Assembly (NCBI RefSeq): GCF_000235425.2
Contig: NZ_KI912266.1
Coordinates: 7,494,720-7,558,719, forward strand
From: Pseudofrankia saprophytica
GTDB lineage: Bacteria; Actinomycetota; Actinomycetes; Frankiales; Frankiaceae
DNA: 64,000 nt
Direction: 5' to 3'
Part shown: piece after piece, positions 16,931-63,032 of the stretch
Layout: every line of letters begins with the position of its first letter
Position numbering within the stretch: the stretch's first letter is position 1
The notes under the pieces: generated by a model
Databases searched by the model: none
What the model was told of the DNA's origin: nothing
The model's input: the letters and a program-made list of their open reading frames with translations, nothing else
Position numbers and translations under genes: made by a program

Positions 16931-17055
16931 GATCGTCGACGACGGATCTCCCCAACCATGTATCAGCGGCGCCACTGACTACTCACCTTCGTCGACAGCA
17001 CGGCCGCGCCCACCGCGCGCGGCCGTCGCCGGCAGCAGGGGAGGTTGGCGACACG

Positions 17056-17790
17056 GTGACTGGTGGAACTCGGTCGGCGCCGCGCCCGGAATCCGGGTGT
17101 CCGCCGTCGGCGACCGGCCCCGGCGGGGACGACAGGCGGGACGGCCCTGAGCCCCAGCGGGCCGACGCGTCGGCACCAGCGAGCGAGGACGCGACGCTGG
17201 CGGAACTGACGCCCGGGGAGCTGGTGAGCCGGATACGCGAGGGCGACCTGTCCGCGTGGCCAGCGCTGAACGAGCGCTACATCGGCCTGCTGTGGGCGGT
17301 GGCACGCGGGATGCGTCTCGACGAGATGGATGCCGAAGACGCCATCCAGACGACCTGGCTGCGCCTCGTCGAGAACCTGGGTGCCCTGCGTGATCCCGAG
17401 TACGTCGGTAGCTGGCTGGTCACCACGGTCCGCCGGGAGTGCCTGGCGACACTGCGGCGCCGAGTACGGGTCCGCGCGGGCCTCGACCAGACGATCTCCG
17501 ACGAGCCCGCGCCACCGGACACCGGGCCGGAGGACGTGTTGCTGCTGGCCGAACGGGACGCGGCGCTGTGGCGGGCGTTCCGCCGCCTCGCGCCGCGCTG
17601 CCAGCACCTGCTGCGCGTGCTCATGGCCGACCCGCCGCCGAGCTACGCCGAGGTCGCCGCCGCGCTGGACTGCTCCCCCGGCTACATCGGCCCGACCCGA
17701 AAACGATGCCTCGAGCAGCTTCGTACCTTGTTGGCCGCCCACGACCAGCCGCCGGGTGGGTCTGATTCCGGGAGCCTGCGCCATGGATGA
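17056..17790 (+). CDS. ECF-type sigma-70 family RNA polymerase sigma factor
   Basis: A 244-residue protein with a GTG start. After a disordered 45-residue leader come a sigma region 2 (ALNERYIGLLWAVARG, DAEDAIQTTWLRLV) at about 73-115 and a sigma region 4 (CQHLLRVLM, SYAEVAAALDCSPGYIG) at about 178-225. It would direct RNA polymerase to its own promoters. The last eight bases overlap the next gene (ATGGATGA), so the two are translationally coupled. It heads the module that faces the CHAT protease. Confidence 0.88.
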   Translation: MTGGTRSAPRPESGCPPSATGPGGDDRRDGPEPQRADASAPASEDATLAELTPGELVSRIREGDLSAWPALNERYIGLLWAVARGMRLDEMDAEDAIQTTWLRLVENLGALRDPEYVGSWLVTTVRRECLATLRRRVRVRAGLDQTISDEPAPPDTGPEDVLLLAERDAALWRAFRRLAPRCQHLLRVLMADPPPSYAEVAAALDCSPGYIGPTRKRCLEQLRTLLAAHDQPPGGSDSGSLRHG

Positions 17791-18367
17791 CGACAGCACG
17801 GCCGTCCCCGTCCCCGCCGACGCCGAAGACGAGGCGACCGCGAAGGACCTGAACGCCGAAGACGCCGAGCTGCTCGCCGCGCTGCGCCGGGTCGCGACCG
17901 AGGTCGACCCCGTCTCCGACCGGGCTCGGCAGGCCGCCCGTCTCGCGATCACCTTCCTCGACCCCGATGGGGAGCTGGCACGGCTTGTCGCCGCTTCCGG
18001 CGACGAGCTGGCGGACGCGGGCCTGACCGGTGGGACGTCAGCATCTGGACGCGTCGACCCGCGGGGACGGCTCGCGCTGCGCGCGGGTGAGCCCACCGAG
18101 GGTGCGCCGCTGGTGCTGTCCTTCGCCGCGTCCGACGTCTACATCGACCTGGAGATCACCGGCCGCGGGCAGCAGGTCGACATCGTCGGCCAGGTGGTCG
18201 GCACGGCCGAGTCCACCTGCGTCATCGAGGACGCGGGCGGCGCCCGCGACGTCGCGGTCGACACGCTGGGGCGGTTCTTCGTGGAAGGGCTGCGTCGCGG
18301 GCCCATCCGCCTACGGTGCCGCTCCACCAACGGGGCCACCGTGACGACCGCGTGGACCACGGTGTGA
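17783..18367 (+). CDS. Sigma-coupled unknown protein (possible anti-sigma or protease substrate)
   Basis: A 194-residue protein. Residues 1-60 are acidic and helical (EDAELLAALRRVATEVDP, then ARQAARLAITF); about 110-190 look like a beta-sandwich (DVYIDLEITGRG, IVGQVVGT, GRFFVEGLRRGPIRL). No membrane segment or zinc site is visible. Its start lies inside the sigma gene, a position often held by a sigma antagonist. I infer it may bind the sigma factor and could be the cleavage target of the neighbouring CHAT or S8 protease; nothing in the sequence proves this. Confidence 0.65.
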   Translation: MDDDSTAVPVPADAEDEATAKDLNAEDAELLAALRRVATEVDPVSDRARQAARLAITFLDPDGELARLVAASGDELADAGLTGGTSASGRVDPRGRLALRAGEPTEGAPLVLSFAASDVYIDLEITGRGQQVDIVGQVVGTAESTCVIEDAGGARDVAVDTLGRFFVEGLRRGPIRLRCRSTNGATVTTAWTTV

Positions 18368-18374
18368 ACGCGCA

Positions 18375-18416
18375 CCGGTCGGTCCGGCCGCGACGCACCG
18401 CCGCGCCTCCGACCGG
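18375..18416. terminator. Inverted repeat between convergent genes
   Basis: CCGGTCGG (18375-18382) and CCGACCGG (18409-18416) are exact inverted arms around a 26-nt loop. They fill the 50-bp gap between the sigma-coupled gene and the CHAT gene. A weak bidirectional terminator is the simplest reading. Confidence 0.35.
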
Positions 18417-18417
18417 G

Positions 18418-21042
18418 CTAACGTCCGAGCGCCACGAACGCCAGTCCCGCCGCGAGCCCCGCCGGATCGTCGACGGCCACGGCACGAGCGACCGACAGCG
18501 CCTGTGCGAGGTCGACGCCGGCGCGCAGCCGCGCGTGCACCTCGACCATGAGCGGGGCGGTCGCCGCGTCGTTCACCGGCACGACGCTGGCCAGCAGGCT
18601 CGCTGTGCCCTTCGGGATGAGCGCACCCACCATGCCGACCAGCTCGTCGGCGCCGACTGGTACCCCGACTGCGGACTCGCAGCTCGCGAGCACCAGCTGG
18701 TACGGCGCGCGGCGCAGGCGAGCGAGGTCGTAGACGGTCAGCGGCCCGTCGTCGAGCCGCAAGGACGAGAACAGTGGGCTGTCCGCGCGGAACGTGCCAT
18801 GCGCCGCCACGTGCGCCAGCCAGGCGTCGTCGAGCAGGGCCAGCGTCCGCTCCGCCGTCGCCTGGCCGTCGCGCAGGACGACTGGGCCGGGGTAGCCGGT
18901 CGCGATCTGGCGTACCTCGGCGGCCGTCCCCTCCAGCCCGGGTCCGACCACGAGGGCGACCCTGCGCCGCCGCGGTGGGGTGGCCCGGTGCGCGGCGAGC
19001 CAGGCCGTCGCCGACGGGGCTACCCGGACCGCGCTCGTCCGCAGGCTGGGGAGCAGGGACCAGGGCACCGCGTGCAGGCTGCCGGGCGGCACCACGAGCA
19101 CCGGCCCACCGTCGAGCTCGCGGGCGGCGGCGCCGAGGAGGGTCTCCTCGAGCAGCTGGCCGGCGGCCGCGAGCCGGCCGGTGAAGCCGGGCGGTGGCTG
19201 ACCCAGCGCCAGTCGACGGAGAAGGAAGCGCGCAAACTGCACCTCCCGCTCGGCCGCGCGCACCGAACCGGCCGGGTGCAGCCGCACTCGGCCGTTGGCC
19301 ACGGTCACCACGTGCAGCAGCCCGTCGAGCTCGATGATCTCCAGCAGGCGCAGCTCGCCAAGGGCCGCGACGATCTCGGCGATCGACGGGCGGGCGGGAC
19401 CGGGCCCGCTCATGGGCGAGCGGACCGCCTCCACCCGGCGGGTGCGGGCGCGGATCGCCGCCTCCAGCCGGATCCGTCGGCCATCCAGGCCGCCGGTCGG
19501 CCGCCCTTTTTCCCGCGCCACGTCGAGCGCCTGCCCGACAGCGCGCAGCGCGGCGAGATCCGCGGTCAGCTGGGGATCGTCAGGGGGGCGGGCAGCCGGC
19601 ATCGCGAAGGCGCTGGCACGCCAGCGCTCGCTCCAGCGCAACAGCATCCGGGCGTCGCGGCGGCGCAGCGCCAGCCGCTGCGCGACGGCGGCCAGCTGGG
19701 CGCCGTGGGCGGTGGCATGCGCCCGCAGCTCCTGCGCGCCAAGGTGGCGCAGCTGGTCCTCGACAGCGGCGAGGCCGCGGCCGCAGGCCAGCAGCGTCTC
19801 CCGGTCCTGGCCCCGGCCGTTCGCCCACAGCGCCTTCGCGAGCCAGCCGGTGGCGCGGTCGATCGCGGCGCCCGAACGCCGGAACCCCGCGGCGAGCCCG
19901 AGCAGGGTCTCCGCCTCACGGCCGCCTTCGAGCGCGAGCCGGCCGGCGAACAGGTACGCCCGGGCGGCCTCGGCGGCCCGCAACTCGCCGAGCCGGTGCG
20001 CGAGGTCCGCCGCGCGGGTGGCCAGCCGCGCGTCACGGGCCCCGGTCGCATGCTGTGCGCTGAGCAGGACGAACGACGCACGCAGCTGCCACCAGGTCCG
20101 GGCCTGCTGGCGGAACAGGTCATGCGCCGCCGCGGCGCGCTGGGCGGCTACCGCCGGGCTGGCCGCGGCGAGCGCCGCGGTCGCCGCTGCGAACAGCAGC
20201 TCCGCCTTGCGGGTGACCTGCACGTTCTCCTTGGCGGCGGCCGCGATGGCTCCGTCGGTCTCCCGCAGCGCGTCGGCGGCCAGGCCTGCGGCCAGCAGCA
20301 CGTTGCACCGGTCGATCGCGAGCTCGGGCTCGGACGTGGCCAGCGCGGCGTACCGCTCGGCGGCCCTGTCGAGCAAGCGCAGCGCGGTGGGCAGCTCGCC
20401 GCGGCGCTGGGCGACCCGTGCCCTGCTGTGCCACGACCAGGCGATCTCCAGGTCCTGGCCGGCGGCCGTCAGCAGTCGTTCGGAGATCACGAAGTCCCGC
20501 TCGGCCCTGTCTGTCTGACCGAGGGCGAGGTAGGACATGCCACGGTGGGTGCGGCACCGTCCCTCCCACATGGGGTCACCCGCGGCGCGCAGCAACGTCG
20601 TCGCCCGTCCCAGGTCGCGCAGCGCCTCGTCATGGCGCCCGAGAACGCCGAGCACCGCGCCGCGCCGCATCAGGACCTGACCGCCGAGCAGCCCGTCGCT
20701 GTGCCGGGCAGCCGCGTCGAGCTGCCTGAGGCCGGCGGCGGTATGGCCGTTCAGCGCCAGGGTCGTCCCCATCGTCGCCCGCACGTCGACCAGGCGGCGG
20801 GGATCCCCGCAGGCCCGCGCCGACCGCATCGCCGCGCGCAGCTCGGCGACCGCCTCGTCAGCCCGACCGCTGTCGCGCGCCACGATCCCGAGCGTCTGGT
20901 GGGCGACGGAAAGCGCGCACGGGTCCGCGGAGGTGTCGAGCCACCTTGACGCCGCCGCCACCGCGTCGAGGGGCCGGGACAACGCGAGCGCCAGCAGCGC
21001 GGCGTGATCAGTGGCGGTATCGCCGTGGACGGGCCCGCCCAT
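18418..21042 (-). CDS. TPR-CHAT caspase-like protease
   Basis: An 874-residue soluble protein. Residues about 35-450 are helical TPR-like repeats (for example ALRDLGRATTLLRAAGDP). The C-terminal ~200 residues are a CHAT domain of the caspase fold with the dyad H748 (VAAHGTFRADSPLF) and C788 (LVLASCESAVG). GALIPKGTASLLASVVPVND is the expected following strand. CHAT proteins are cytosolic cysteine proteases switched on by partner binding. It is convergent with the sigma pair and divergent from a subtilase, and the catalytic dyad is intact. Confidence 0.9.
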   Translation of the reverse strand: MGGPVHGDTATDHAALLALALSRPLDAVAAASRWLDTSADPCALSVAHQTLGIVARDSGRADEAVAELRAAMRSARACGDPRRLVDVRATMGTTLALNGHTAAGLRQLDAAARHSDGLLGGQVLMRRGAVLGVLGRHDEALRDLGRATTLLRAAGDPMWEGRCRTHRGMSYLALGQTDRAERDFVISERLLTAAGQDLEIAWSWHSRARVAQRRGELPTALRLLDRAAERYAALATSEPELAIDRCNVLLAAGLAADALRETDGAIAAAAKENVQVTRKAELLFAAATAALAAASPAVAAQRAAAAHDLFRQQARTWWQLRASFVLLSAQHATGARDARLATRAADLAHRLGELRAAEAARAYLFAGRLALEGGREAETLLGLAAGFRRSGAAIDRATGWLAKALWANGRGQDRETLLACGRGLAAVEDQLRHLGAQELRAHATAHGAQLAAVAQRLALRRRDARMLLRWSERWRASAFAMPAARPPDDPQLTADLAALRAVGQALDVAREKGRPTGGLDGRRIRLEAAIRARTRRVEAVRSPMSGPGPARPSIAEIVAALGELRLLEIIELDGLLHVVTVANGRVRLHPAGSVRAAEREVQFARFLLRRLALGQPPPGFTGRLAAAGQLLEETLLGAAARELDGGPVLVVPPGSLHAVPWSLLPSLRTSAVRVAPSATAWLAAHRATPPRRRRVALVVGPGLEGTAAEVRQIATGYPGPVVLRDGQATAERTLALLDDAWLAHVAAHGTFRADSPLFSSLRLDDGPLTVYDLARLRRAPYQLVLASCESAVGVPVGADELVGMVGALIPKGTASLLASVVPVNDAATAPLMVEVHARLRAGVDLAQALSVARAVAVDDPAGLAAGLAFVALGR

Positions 21043-21160
21043 CAGTCAGGAGGGCGTCGAGCCCGCCATGGACGGCTCCGCCCCGTTCCCCCCATGCCAT
21101 CAACCTTAAGACCAATCCACACGACCACCACGTCATTGGCCGAAAGGGAGCTAAGCCCAC

Positions 21161-22510
21161 ATGACATCACGCGACGAACCACCAGCCCAGGAGCCAGGCC
21201 CCCGGCCAGCCCGCGGCGGCGGCCCCGGCGGCCCACCTCAGGACGAAGATCGACGTGCGGCGCGCCGGCGCCGGCGCGACCGCCGCCCGCCGACCCTCCA
21301 GCAGATCCGGCAGGCCGGACTGGTCATCGCCTATCACGGGGCGCAGGTCAACCAGCCCGCGGGATGGGGAGACGACGGGGTGGACACCTTCTATCGCGAG
21401 GAGCACCTCGTCGTCCGGGACGACTACGTCGACCGGGTCCTTCAGGTGCTCGACCTGGTCGACACCAACCGCGACCTCGCGCGCGAACGCGAGCGGCGCG
21501 TCCGGGGCGTCGTCGACGGACTCCATCTCGTCCGGATCGACCGTCCGGTCGAGGGAGCGCTGGCGCAGGTCACCGAGCGGCTCGGGATCGGCGTCGCGGC
21601 GCCGGACTACCTGCTGTCGATCACGGTTGGTGGCTTCTGCCCGGCGAGTGAGCCCGAGGTCCCACCCGTCGGGAGCCCTCCCTGGCCCCCGCCCGCGGCG
21701 GATCCCACCGCCGGCGACGGCGTGCGCGTTCTGATCCCCGATACGGGACTGGACCCGACCGCGTCCACCACCTATTCCTGGCTGCAGGGGCTGACGGGCG
21801 ATGTCGACACCCGGATCGAGATCCCGCGCTCGGGGCCGCACGTCCTGCGTCCCTATTCCGGGCACGGGACGTTCATCGCGGGTGTCCTGAGACGCGTGGC
21901 GCCGATGGCCACGGTGATCGTGCGGGACATCTTCAGCCCCGTGGGCACCGCCTTCGAGACCGATCTCATCCCGGAGCTGGTGGACCTCATCGCCCTCGAC
22001 CAGCCGGACGTCATCAGCCTCTCGGCCGGCACGACGGTCCTGAACGGGACGCTGCCGCTGGTCCTGCAGTGGTTCCAGAACGACTACCTCCCCGCGGTCG
22101 GAGGCCTGGCACTAATCGCGGCGGCCGGGAACAACGCCAGCTGCGAGCGGTTCTACCCGGCCGCCTTCGACCCGGTGTTCGCCGTCGGCGCGCTGGACGC
22201 GGCGCAGTCTCAGCGCGCCCCCTACAGCAACTACGGCTCGTGGGTCGACGTCCTCGCGCCCGGGACGGAACTCGTGAACGCCTTCCCGACCGGGACCTAC
22301 ACGACCACCGAGACAAGCTCACGGGGGCAGGTCAGGAACTTCACGACCGGCCTCGCCAGGTGGTCCGGCACCTCCTTCGCCACGCCGATCCTCGCGGGGT
22401 TGACCGCGGCCCGCATGTCGGCGGCGCAGGTGGATGGCCAGACGGCGGCGCAGTATCTGGTAAGCAACGCGCCCGTGGTCCAGGGAGTCGGCAGGGTATT
22501 GCTTCCCTGA
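21161..22510 (+). CDS. S8 (subtilisin-like) peptidase without signal peptide
   Basis: A 449-residue serine protease with the complete triad D194 (IPDTGLD), H235 (SGHGTFIAG) and S405 (SGTSFATP), and the oxyanion Asn in AAAGNN. Residues 1-185 are an Arg/Pro-rich leader and a prodomain-like part; there is no signal peptide or membrane helix, so it probably acts in the cytoplasm. The ATG has GGGAG ten nucleotides ahead. It is divergent from TPR-CHAT across 118 bp and followed by a small orphan. Its prodomain could be the cut site for CHAT activation; that is inference. Confidence 0.9.
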   Translation: MTSRDEPPAQEPGPRPARGGGPGGPPQDEDRRAARRRRRDRRPPTLQQIRQAGLVIAYHGAQVNQPAGWGDDGVDTFYREEHLVVRDDYVDRVLQVLDLVDTNRDLARERERRVRGVVDGLHLVRIDRPVEGALAQVTERLGIGVAAPDYLLSITVGGFCPASEPEVPPVGSPPWPPPAADPTAGDGVRVLIPDTGLDPTASTTYSWLQGLTGDVDTRIEIPRSGPHVLRPYSGHGTFIAGVLRRVAPMATVIVRDIFSPVGTAFETDLIPELVDLIALDQPDVISLSAGTTVLNGTLPLVLQWFQNDYLPAVGGLALIAAAGNNASCERFYPAAFDPVFAVGALDAAQSQRAPYSNYGSWVDVLAPGTELVNAFPTGTYTTTETSSRGQVRNFTTGLARWSGTSFATPILAGLTAARMSAAQVDGQTAAQYLVSNAPVVQGVGRVLLP

Positions 22511-22626
22511 CCGTGCGAAAAATGTTCGGAGGTGGCAGAGAAAAACCGATCCCGATGTATCAGGGAAGACCGCGGATCCCTCTCATTGTCGAGACCATCG
22601 GTTCTCCACCATGAAAGGGCAGAAAA

Positions 22627-23058
22627 ATGCCAGAAGCAAATGACGCGGAGCTGACCCGGGTATTCACCGCGTCGGTCAGCGCCGCCCCCGCCGTCGAGGA
22701 CGGCGAGCCGAACACCGCCGCTCCGGGCTCTCCCGCGGCCGCGCAGTTCTACCTCTTCGTCGAGGGAGTGGCCGGCAACGTCCTCGGCAACAGCGGCGCG
22801 AACTACACGCTCTACCTGGACGCCGTCGCCGAAACCACGGGCGCCCCCGCGCTCAGCCAGTTCACGCTGGCACAGGAGTTCTCGCCGACCACCTGGGTGC
22901 CGGGTGGCCTCGCCGGGAACTTCGTCACCCAGCAGGTGTTCACCGTCCCGGTCCCGACCGGCGCCCGCGGGCATGTCTACCGCTACAAGGCCAGGCTGGT
23001 CGGCGTCAGCAACAACACCGTCTCGCACAGCAGGAGCAACGAGTTCGTGTTGGTCTGA
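22627..23058 (+). CDS. Small beta-rich orphan protein downstream of S8 peptidase
   Basis: A 143-residue protein I do not recognise. It has no signal peptide, membrane helix or cysteine. Alternating hydrophobic strands (FYLFVEGVAG, NYTLYLDAV, HVYRYKARLVG) suggest an immunoglobulin-like beta sandwich. AAAGGG precedes the ATG. It follows the subtilase by 116 bp and is closed by a strong hairpin, so it belongs to that transcription unit. It could be an inhibitor, adaptor or substrate of the protease. Confidence 0.6.
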   Translation: MPEANDAELTRVFTASVSAAPAVEDGEPNTAAPGSPAAAQFYLFVEGVAGNVLGNSGANYTLYLDAVAETTGAPALSQFTLAQEFSPTTWVPGGLAGNFVTQQVFTVPVPTGARGHVYRYKARLVGVSNNTVSHSRSNEFVLV

Positions 23059-23088: not shown

Positions 23089-23127
23089 CGGCTGGTTGCC
23101 AGGGGCAGGGGGACTGGCAACCAGCCG
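23089..23127. terminator. Perfect 14-bp hairpin after the protease module
   Basis: CGGCTGGTTGCCAG at 23089-23102 is the exact reverse complement of 23114-23127 with an 11-nt loop. It begins 31 nt after the stop of the small orphan gene and ends the S8 transcription unit. It also faces the convergent XRE-cupin gene. Confidence 0.75.
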
Positions 23128-62933: not shown

Positions 62934-63032
62934 TACACCTGCTCTACGCGCCCGGAGGTACGGTCAGAAACTTCGGAAGCTCGACGACTGGTCCTTGGAC
63001 GCCGCGGGTTTCCGAGTACCCGGACGCCGAGG

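Follow-up and report, generated by a model that had tools for sequence, protein, structure and literature searches.

Gene content and arrangement of the locus

The window analysed here, a stretch of 64,000 nucleotides from the actinobacterium Pseudofrankia saprophytica (assembly GCF_000235425.2, contig NZ_KI912266.1, positions 7,494,720 to 7,558,719 of the forward strand), contains five neighbouring genes for a sigma factor (sig), a 194-residue protein (p194), a TPR-CHAT caspase-like protease (CHAT), an S8 peptidase (S8) and a small protein (p143); the first four were confirmed to form a real module that is conserved across many actinobacteria. An earlier note, made from the sequence alone, had proposed the five genes as a signalling unit, and on re-reading of the window all of them were recovered where the note had placed them, in the order sig>, p194>, <CHAT, S8>, p143>. 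The gene sig (17056..17790, plus strand; 244 residues) indeed encodes a sigma factor of the extracytoplasmic function (ECF) type (TIGR02937, E = 1.6e-19; Pfam Sigma70_r2, E = 1.6e-12); its start codon, as read off the sequence, is GTG with GGAGG upstream. As had been noted, p194 (17783..18367, plus strand) begins inside sig, 8 nucleotides before the end of the latter. CHAT (18418..21042, minus strand; PF12770, E = 7e-29, plus TPRs) carries the expected H748/C788 dyad, and S8 (21161..22510, plus strand; PF00082, E = 5.5e-22) the full D194/H235/S405 triad together with the oxyanion residue N324. CHAT points towards p194 and away from S8, and hence the five genes do not form a single transcript; this opposite orientation was absent from the earlier note, as were the published ECF54 precedent and the conserved, predicted promoter discussed below, by which the circuit would amplify itself and drive a local output. 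The 3′-terminal gene p143 (22627..23058, plus strand) is followed by a 14-bp hairpin (23089..23127, plus strand; −37.1 kcal/mol, z −1.73; without a visible T tract) that may mark a transcript end. A promoter-like dyad with the first half TGTATCA and the second half CTC lies upstream of sig (16959..16984, plus strand, spacing N16) and again upstream of p143 (22556..22582, plus strand, spacing N17); both are regarded as putative promoters from dyad statistics, on sequence only.

Conservation of the module among actinobacteria

In the CHAT-led scan, an alignment of five CHAT relatives was searched against a genome collection. Of 496 confirmed candidates the 80 best were retained, among which Streptomyces (33 loci) and Kribbella (13 loci; groups assigned by hand) are strongly represented; together with four previously found loci and the window itself, they make up 85 CHAT loci. 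These represent 84 distinct loci, L019 and L040 being the same contig (with CHAT split over two frames and an extra short sig fragment matched); the duplicate L040 was kept in the 85-locus co-occurrence count and left out of the dyad, upstream-site and distance analyses. Gene calls were obtained with a simple codon-usage caller and with six-frame profiles derived from these loci. Within 5 kb of CHAT, S8 was present in 84 of the 85 loci, p194 in 77, sig in 72 and all four genes in 71. At least 82 loci had S8 and CHAT in head-to-head orientation; around these two genes, the sig-p194 pair took one of five simple arrangements in 66 loci and a compound one in 5.

The reciprocal test started from p194, whose profile was searched against 98 genomes sampled evenly from the class. 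It was matched in 34 of them, the own genome included, and in 26 of 63 genera. All 39 matches outside the own genome were examined: sig was present at 37, S8 at 29, CHAT at 27 and the complete set of four at 26, some of the contigs ending inside the locus. Lone sig-p194 pairs on longer contigs were encountered in seven genomes of five genera (three genomes belonging to one genus), six of which (four genera) contained one module-type CHAT elsewhere; S8 adjoined this distant CHAT in five of the six, and in the sixth a contig end cuts the region off. Conversely, 13 CHAT loci had no sig within 5 kb, and a close sig relative was present elsewhere (one to five copies) in all eight genomes checked, which did not include those of L028, L055, L074, L076 and L078. 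One of the eight (L057) is identical with one of the seven lone-pair genomes, met from the other side. In the Blastococcus locus L075, sig adjoined a second CHAT just outside the stretch analysed, and L055 held a second S8-sig-p194 set within the same stretch. In L081 (3547-9936), the gene of a matrixin-type metalloprotease with its own dyad is inserted between two S8-sig-p194 sets.

As a control, 13 stretches that cover the other 17 CHAT genes of the window genome revealed no relative of sig, p194 or S8; some of these stretches extend by under 5 kb to one side, and their CHAT genes, among which the CHAT profile gave only 10 hits, belong to other subtypes. Chance neighbourhood was rejected by the combined weight of synteny, the reciprocal p194 search, the split modules and this control. 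(The window genome has 18 CHAT-domain matches in total, several of them side by side near 2.98-3.04 Mb.) The co-occurrence expected by the earlier note was thus observed for sig, p194, CHAT and S8, while p143 proved to lie outside the conserved core. Protein distances in 66 single-copy loci were correlated most closely within sig-p194 (rho 0.79) and S8-CHAT (rho 0.83), the cross pairs ranging from 0.62 to 0.70. The sequence comparisons divide the module into two sub-units, sig-p194 and S8/CHAT. In the full-text literature searched, which did not comprise the two primary ECF papers, neither this two-part structure nor the TGTATCA dyad or the output gene of the module was found.

The sigma factor and its partner p194

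The association of these genes is already in print as ECF54: a review (PMC8999054) lists carboxypeptidase, subtilase and CHAT proteins in the genetic context of this group, with SFT86700.1 of Geodermatophilus amargosae as model member, and its section 3.3 proposes proteolytic control without an anti-sigma factor. The present sigma factor is provisionally assigned to ECF54 by its gene neighbourhood, an actinobacterial sigma factor gene near subtilase and CHAT genes. In contrast, the ECF54 passage of the review names no anti-sigma partner, promoter or regulon; what is added here is a predicted promoter dyad, a predicted output gene and a predicted role for p194 as partner. The “carboxypeptidase” of the review is probably the beta-sandwich domain of p194: the Pfam family CarboxypepD_reg was matched in 11 of 49 p194 relatives at E≤0.1 (best E = 7.4e-07; the window copy, with E = 0.034, falls below the cut-off).

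The predicted model of p194 (predicted local distance difference test, pLDDT, 78) consists of N-terminal helices and a C-terminal beta-sandwich. Among the best 50 of 1026 fold matches with E≤10, weak and assorted beta-sandwich proteins were recovered (best E = 0.0097; none at E≤0.001), and by sequence the PDB yielded a domain of the surface protein Bap (E = 1.2e-4). Identification of p194 as an enzyme or as a known anti-sigma factor was rejected, no corresponding match having been obtained among these best 50 fold matches, by PDB sequence or in Pfam. A strongly hydrophobic N-terminal stretch was absent from all 81 relatives in the hydropathy analysis. As the most constant partner of the sigma factor, encoded by an overlapping gene, p194 would most simply be an anti-sigma factor that restrains sigma. 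In L054 (12595-12966, minus strand), p194 as called lacks the N-terminal helical half and an adjacent sig, and is preceded by two TGTATCA sites.

The TPR-CHAT and S8 proteases

For the residue counts, CHAT sequences of less than 600 residues, S8 sequences of less than 350 residues, low-scoring sequences and the duplicate L040 were left out. H748 and C788 of CHAT were retained in all 86 relatives considered, and D194, H235 and N324 of S8 in all 85, with S405 in 84; the single deviating S8 (L060:8580-9890, minus strand) has a cysteine in place of the catalytic serine. The absence of a signal peptide from S8, claimed in the earlier note, was judged by a hydropathy scan alone, in which one of 86 relatives displayed a strongly hydrophobic N-terminal stretch. 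S8 is probably cytosolic.

Subtilisin prodomains have the element order beta-alpha-beta-beta-alpha-beta. The predicted model of S8 (pLDDT 91; below 50 for the first 24 residues) contains at residues of about 78-153 the order beta-alpha-(alpha)-beta-beta-alpha-beta, and its best PDB match by Foldseek was unprocessed pro-subtilisin E (3whi_B; 414 columns, TM score 0.52 by query, root-mean-square deviation 6.1). The prodomain-like domain is followed by a CPAxEP linker (residues 160-165) that is well conserved in 48 relatives (C in 45, P in 40, E in 45 and the final P in 47). Because of this element order and the match to pro-subtilisin E, an activation of S8 through loss of its leader is plausible on the model. 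S8 resembles pro- and intracellular subtilisins in its D/H/N/S core and, on the predicted model, in its N-terminal element order and structural match, and differs from them in the rarity of hydrophobic N-termini, the further N-terminal stretch and the CPAxEP linker; the NCBIfam mycosin model gave 63.9 bits, far under its cut-off of 278.75.

By eye, a TANNNT motif was seen just 5′ of the start codon in several CHAT genes (e.g. L027, L028, L032, L040, L043 and L070), which suggests leaderless CHAT transcripts from a housekeeping-type promoter. A consensus search for sigma-70 promoters in the region yielded none.

A promoter-like dyad at the sigma operon and at neighbouring genes

The dyad was first seen in an exploratory count and by eye and then tested; no motif had been set in advance, and its support comes from permuted and spacing controls. 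Of 88 loci, 58 contained TGTATCA-N16-CTC, with 90 occurrences in all, compared with at most 8 for any of 200 permuted heptamers; the next best spacing of 17 nucleotides gave 17. With CTC/CGT variants allowed, 108 sites lay no more than 6 kb from CHAT (in 1.16 Mb of sequence) and 2 farther away (in 0.63 Mb). Among the scanned loci (best 80 of 496), the strict dyad was present in 55 and the relaxed form in 64, corresponding to 15 and 23, respectively, of 28 hand-assigned genus groups; in the even sample, counted without control, a relaxed site lay somewhere in 26 of the 39 stretches.

Within 400 nucleotides upstream, the dyad preceded S8 in 36 of 83 cases, sig in 18 of 75 and p194 in 3 of 81, and CHAT in none of 86. 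It stood at the operon leader or at sig itself in 51 of 75 sigma operons, often of the type S8-sig-p194; 14 of the remaining 24 had a site at sig, S8 or p194 that was exact or deviated by one mismatch (with up to three windows examined in each locus), the control rate for such sites being 25 in 890 random windows of 450 nucleotides. Based on these data, TGTATCA-N16-CTC is predicted to be a sigma-dependent promoter.

Genome-wide, the 10-Mb window genome contains four dyad sites (N15-17), only two of them beyond those at sig and p143, and the 8.3-Mb genome of Streptomyces sp. GQFP just two strict sites, one at its S8-sig-p194 operon and the other at the gene beyond CHAT. Of 30 dyad sites from 16 other genomes that were listed as loci, 10 were at known loci, 7 within 1.5 kb of six new module copies and 13 at neither. 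Three other sites of the window genome were discarded as targets and taken as chance: that at 62937 has no CTC at 15-17 nucleotides, that of L120 lies at a coding junction and that of L121 has a spacing of 15. A shortened GTATCA-N16-CTC site was seen in L110.

Since the dyad precedes the sigma operon and one neighbouring gene, sigma would control itself and one local, exchangeable output gene, in the window probably p143. In 31 loci, the gene beyond CHAT encodes a homologous protein of 570-720 residues with the site 30-40 nucleotides before its start; the one copy scanned (L059) is of the AAA-LuxR type. The heptamer was also found 5′ of genes for a LAL-type regulator (L058), a cyclase-BTAD pair (L060), a matrixin (L081), an HhH protein (L019), a protein with a weak Big_1 match (L055) and a small, possibly p143-like protein (L029).

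The p143 protein matched neither a Pfam family above cut-off (Tautomerase reached E = 0.095) nor any of NCBIfam. As a core gene it was rejected, relatives being present in two other genomes of 58 searched, there not adjoining the module; outside the core as it is, it nevertheless shares the promoter-like element of the sigma operon. Small proteins related to that of L029 are encoded nearby in L045 and L060 without a site of their own. A profile of the small proteins of L029, L045 and L060 reached a protein of L026 (E = 0.005) and did not reach p143 itself; hhalign gave E = 0.0011 and a probability of 20, so that kinship of p143 with these proteins appears weak. The unrelated protein L045 16785 was left out of the p143 profile. 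In L026 (9744-13762), the p143 relative is encoded directly 5′ of an AAA-TPR-LuxR regulator gene with no sigma module nearby.

Proposed mechanism and alternative explanations

The locus is interpreted as an ECF54-type sigma module that would act as a protease-gated, self-amplifying intracellular switch, a reading that we regard as an even call. CHAT, which lacks a sigma-type site and is for this reason the candidate for a constantly present sensor, would be made at all times and sense a ligand or partner via its TPRs, while p194 would bind and restrain sigma. Once activated, CHAT would bring about cleavage of p194, either directly or by freeing S8 of its prodomain-like inhibitory domain. Free sigma would then transcribe its own operon (positive feedback, with fresh p194 as a brake) and one effector or regulator: p143 in the window, the AAA-LuxR regulator in Streptomyces, and elsewhere a LAL-type regulator, a cyclase-BTAD pair or a matrixin. 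Proteolysis is placed at the gate because two proteases with conserved active sites are co-inherited with sig-p194; every cleavage step, including which protease cuts what, is something that we infer from these comparisons.

Several observations weigh against this interpretation. As to p194, it resembles no known anti-sigma fold or motif among the best 50 of 1026 fold matches, PDB sequences or Pfam, and it stands without an adjacent sig in a few loci. The distance correlations could arise from adjacency alone. p194 was not found in 34 genomes of the window's own genus and family by protein search (nor in five family genomes by profile), so the module would be patchily inherited in this family. 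Pfam Inhibitor_I9 was matched in none of 48 S8 relatives at E≤0.01. A hydrophobic 19-residue window occurs somewhere in 59 of 90 CHAT relatives, which leaves room for a membrane link of CHAT. With respect to the dyad, 10 of 75 sig operons had neither an exact nor a one-mismatch site, and neither S8 nor CHAT of the window is preceded by one, which would place S8 outside the feedback in this organism. Genome-wide totals were at the level of the backward control (4 versus 5 sites in the window genome; 54 versus 59 in 16 other genomes), and in consequence only the local sites stand out.

The strongest alternative, which follows the ECF54 reading of the 2022 review, is that proteolysis holds the system in the off state: S8 and/or CHAT would degrade sigma itself until a signal blocks these proteases. 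It has the precedent of proteolytic control without an anti-sigma factor proposed in section 3.3 (PMC8999054), and in Streptomyces a single dyad appears to serve the joint transcription of S8 and sigma, as would be expected of negative feedback. However, it assigns no role to p194, the most constant partner (37 of 39), and the “carboxypeptidase” is probably the CarboxypepD_reg-like domain of p194 (11 of 49 relatives) and not an enzyme; sigma degradation is considered unlikely. Unlikely, too, is a role of p194 as co-activator, adaptor or folding partner of sigma, or mainly as ligand or substrate of the proteases. The missing anti-sigma fold match, the retention of p194 beside S8/CHAT in loci without adjacent sig, and distances that also track S8 (rho 0.70) and CHAT (rho 0.67) would be in line with it, but the sig-p194 pair persists where S8/CHAT is unlinked, the two genes overlap in the window, and sig was present elsewhere in each of the eight checked genomes whose loci lacked an adjacent copy.

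The −35 element usual for ECF sigma factors is of the GGAAC type, from which the TGTATCA half differs. This deviation, together with the genome-wide totals at control level, could indicate that the dyad is bound by another regulator or sigma factor and that p143 and the LuxR-type genes are merely co-regulated neighbours; the fixed spacing of 16 nucleotides, the CTC second half, the place before the sigma operon and the seven sites at six further sig or S8/CHAT copies among the 30 listed loci render this rather improbable. The abortive-infection or anti-phage circuit suggested by the earlier note, in favour of which speak the analogy to type III-E CASP (PMC10028731), the joint presence of caspase-like protease and subtilase and the patchy distribution in the window's own family, is very improbable, given that PADLOC, applied to the five window proteins and not to neighbouring defence genes, gave no specific match (generic “subtilase” for S8, weak JetA1 for p194 at E = 0.03, none for the others), and that the module recurs in Streptomyces and Kribbella with gene regulators as outputs.

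Comparison with known proteolytic sigma systems

The statement of the earlier note that in type III-E systems a TPR-CHAT protease cleaves an inhibitor of a sigma factor agrees with the description in PMC10028731, in which CASP comprises Cas7-11, Csx29, Csx30 and CASP-sigma, and the binding motifs of CASP-sigma lie in its own locus. The module shares with CASP a TPR-CHAT protease, a proposed sigma inhibitor and a sigma factor with motifs in its own locus; it differs in the additional S8 peptidase and in the size of p194 of just 194 residues. The window CHAT is not Csx29 as judged by NCBIfam NF041237 (10.1 bits versus a cut-off of 300; E = 0.25). RseA/DegS-type proteolytic sigma release, mentioned in the same paper, has in common with the module the proposed protease-controlled release of an ECF sigma factor; in contrast, p194 has no hydrophobic segment in any of 81 relatives and hence no membrane anchor.

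Tentatively, and with more doubt than confidence, the module may be regarded as a widespread, apparently CRISPR-free counterpart of CASP, in which CHAT and a self-inhibited subtilase would act in sequence on p194 as a new class of soluble anti-sigma factor, thereby freeing an ECF sigma factor whose promoter, TGTATCA, would be unusual and whose regulon would be local. Its outputs would be exchangeable: a small protein like p143, a LuxR-type regulator, a metalloprotease or perhaps a small RNA in Kribbella. If true, transcription in ordinary actinobacteria, Streptomyces among them, would be under the control of caspase-like proteases outside any CRISPR context. The p194 marker was present in 34 of the 98 evenly sampled genomes of the class, yet no tested member was found in the literature searched; with a predicted promoter, a two-site regulon in the window genome and a specific candidate for the inhibitor, what had been a passing remark in a review becomes a circuit open to reconstruction.

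Additional sites facing the 3′ end of S8

In ten loci, nine of Kribbella and one of Streptomyces sp. SID13031, the site scan revealed a further TGTATCA site (plus strand) that faces the 3′ end of S8 and has no open reading frame called behind it (L030:8463, L031:8426, L033:8520, L034:8495, L035:8516, L036:8475, L037:8422, L038:8503, L039:8513 and L041:327). No Rfam family was matched above threshold in L035. Behind the sites come G-runs and a strong, partly compensated hairpin, and perhaps a sigma-driven small RNA is encoded there.

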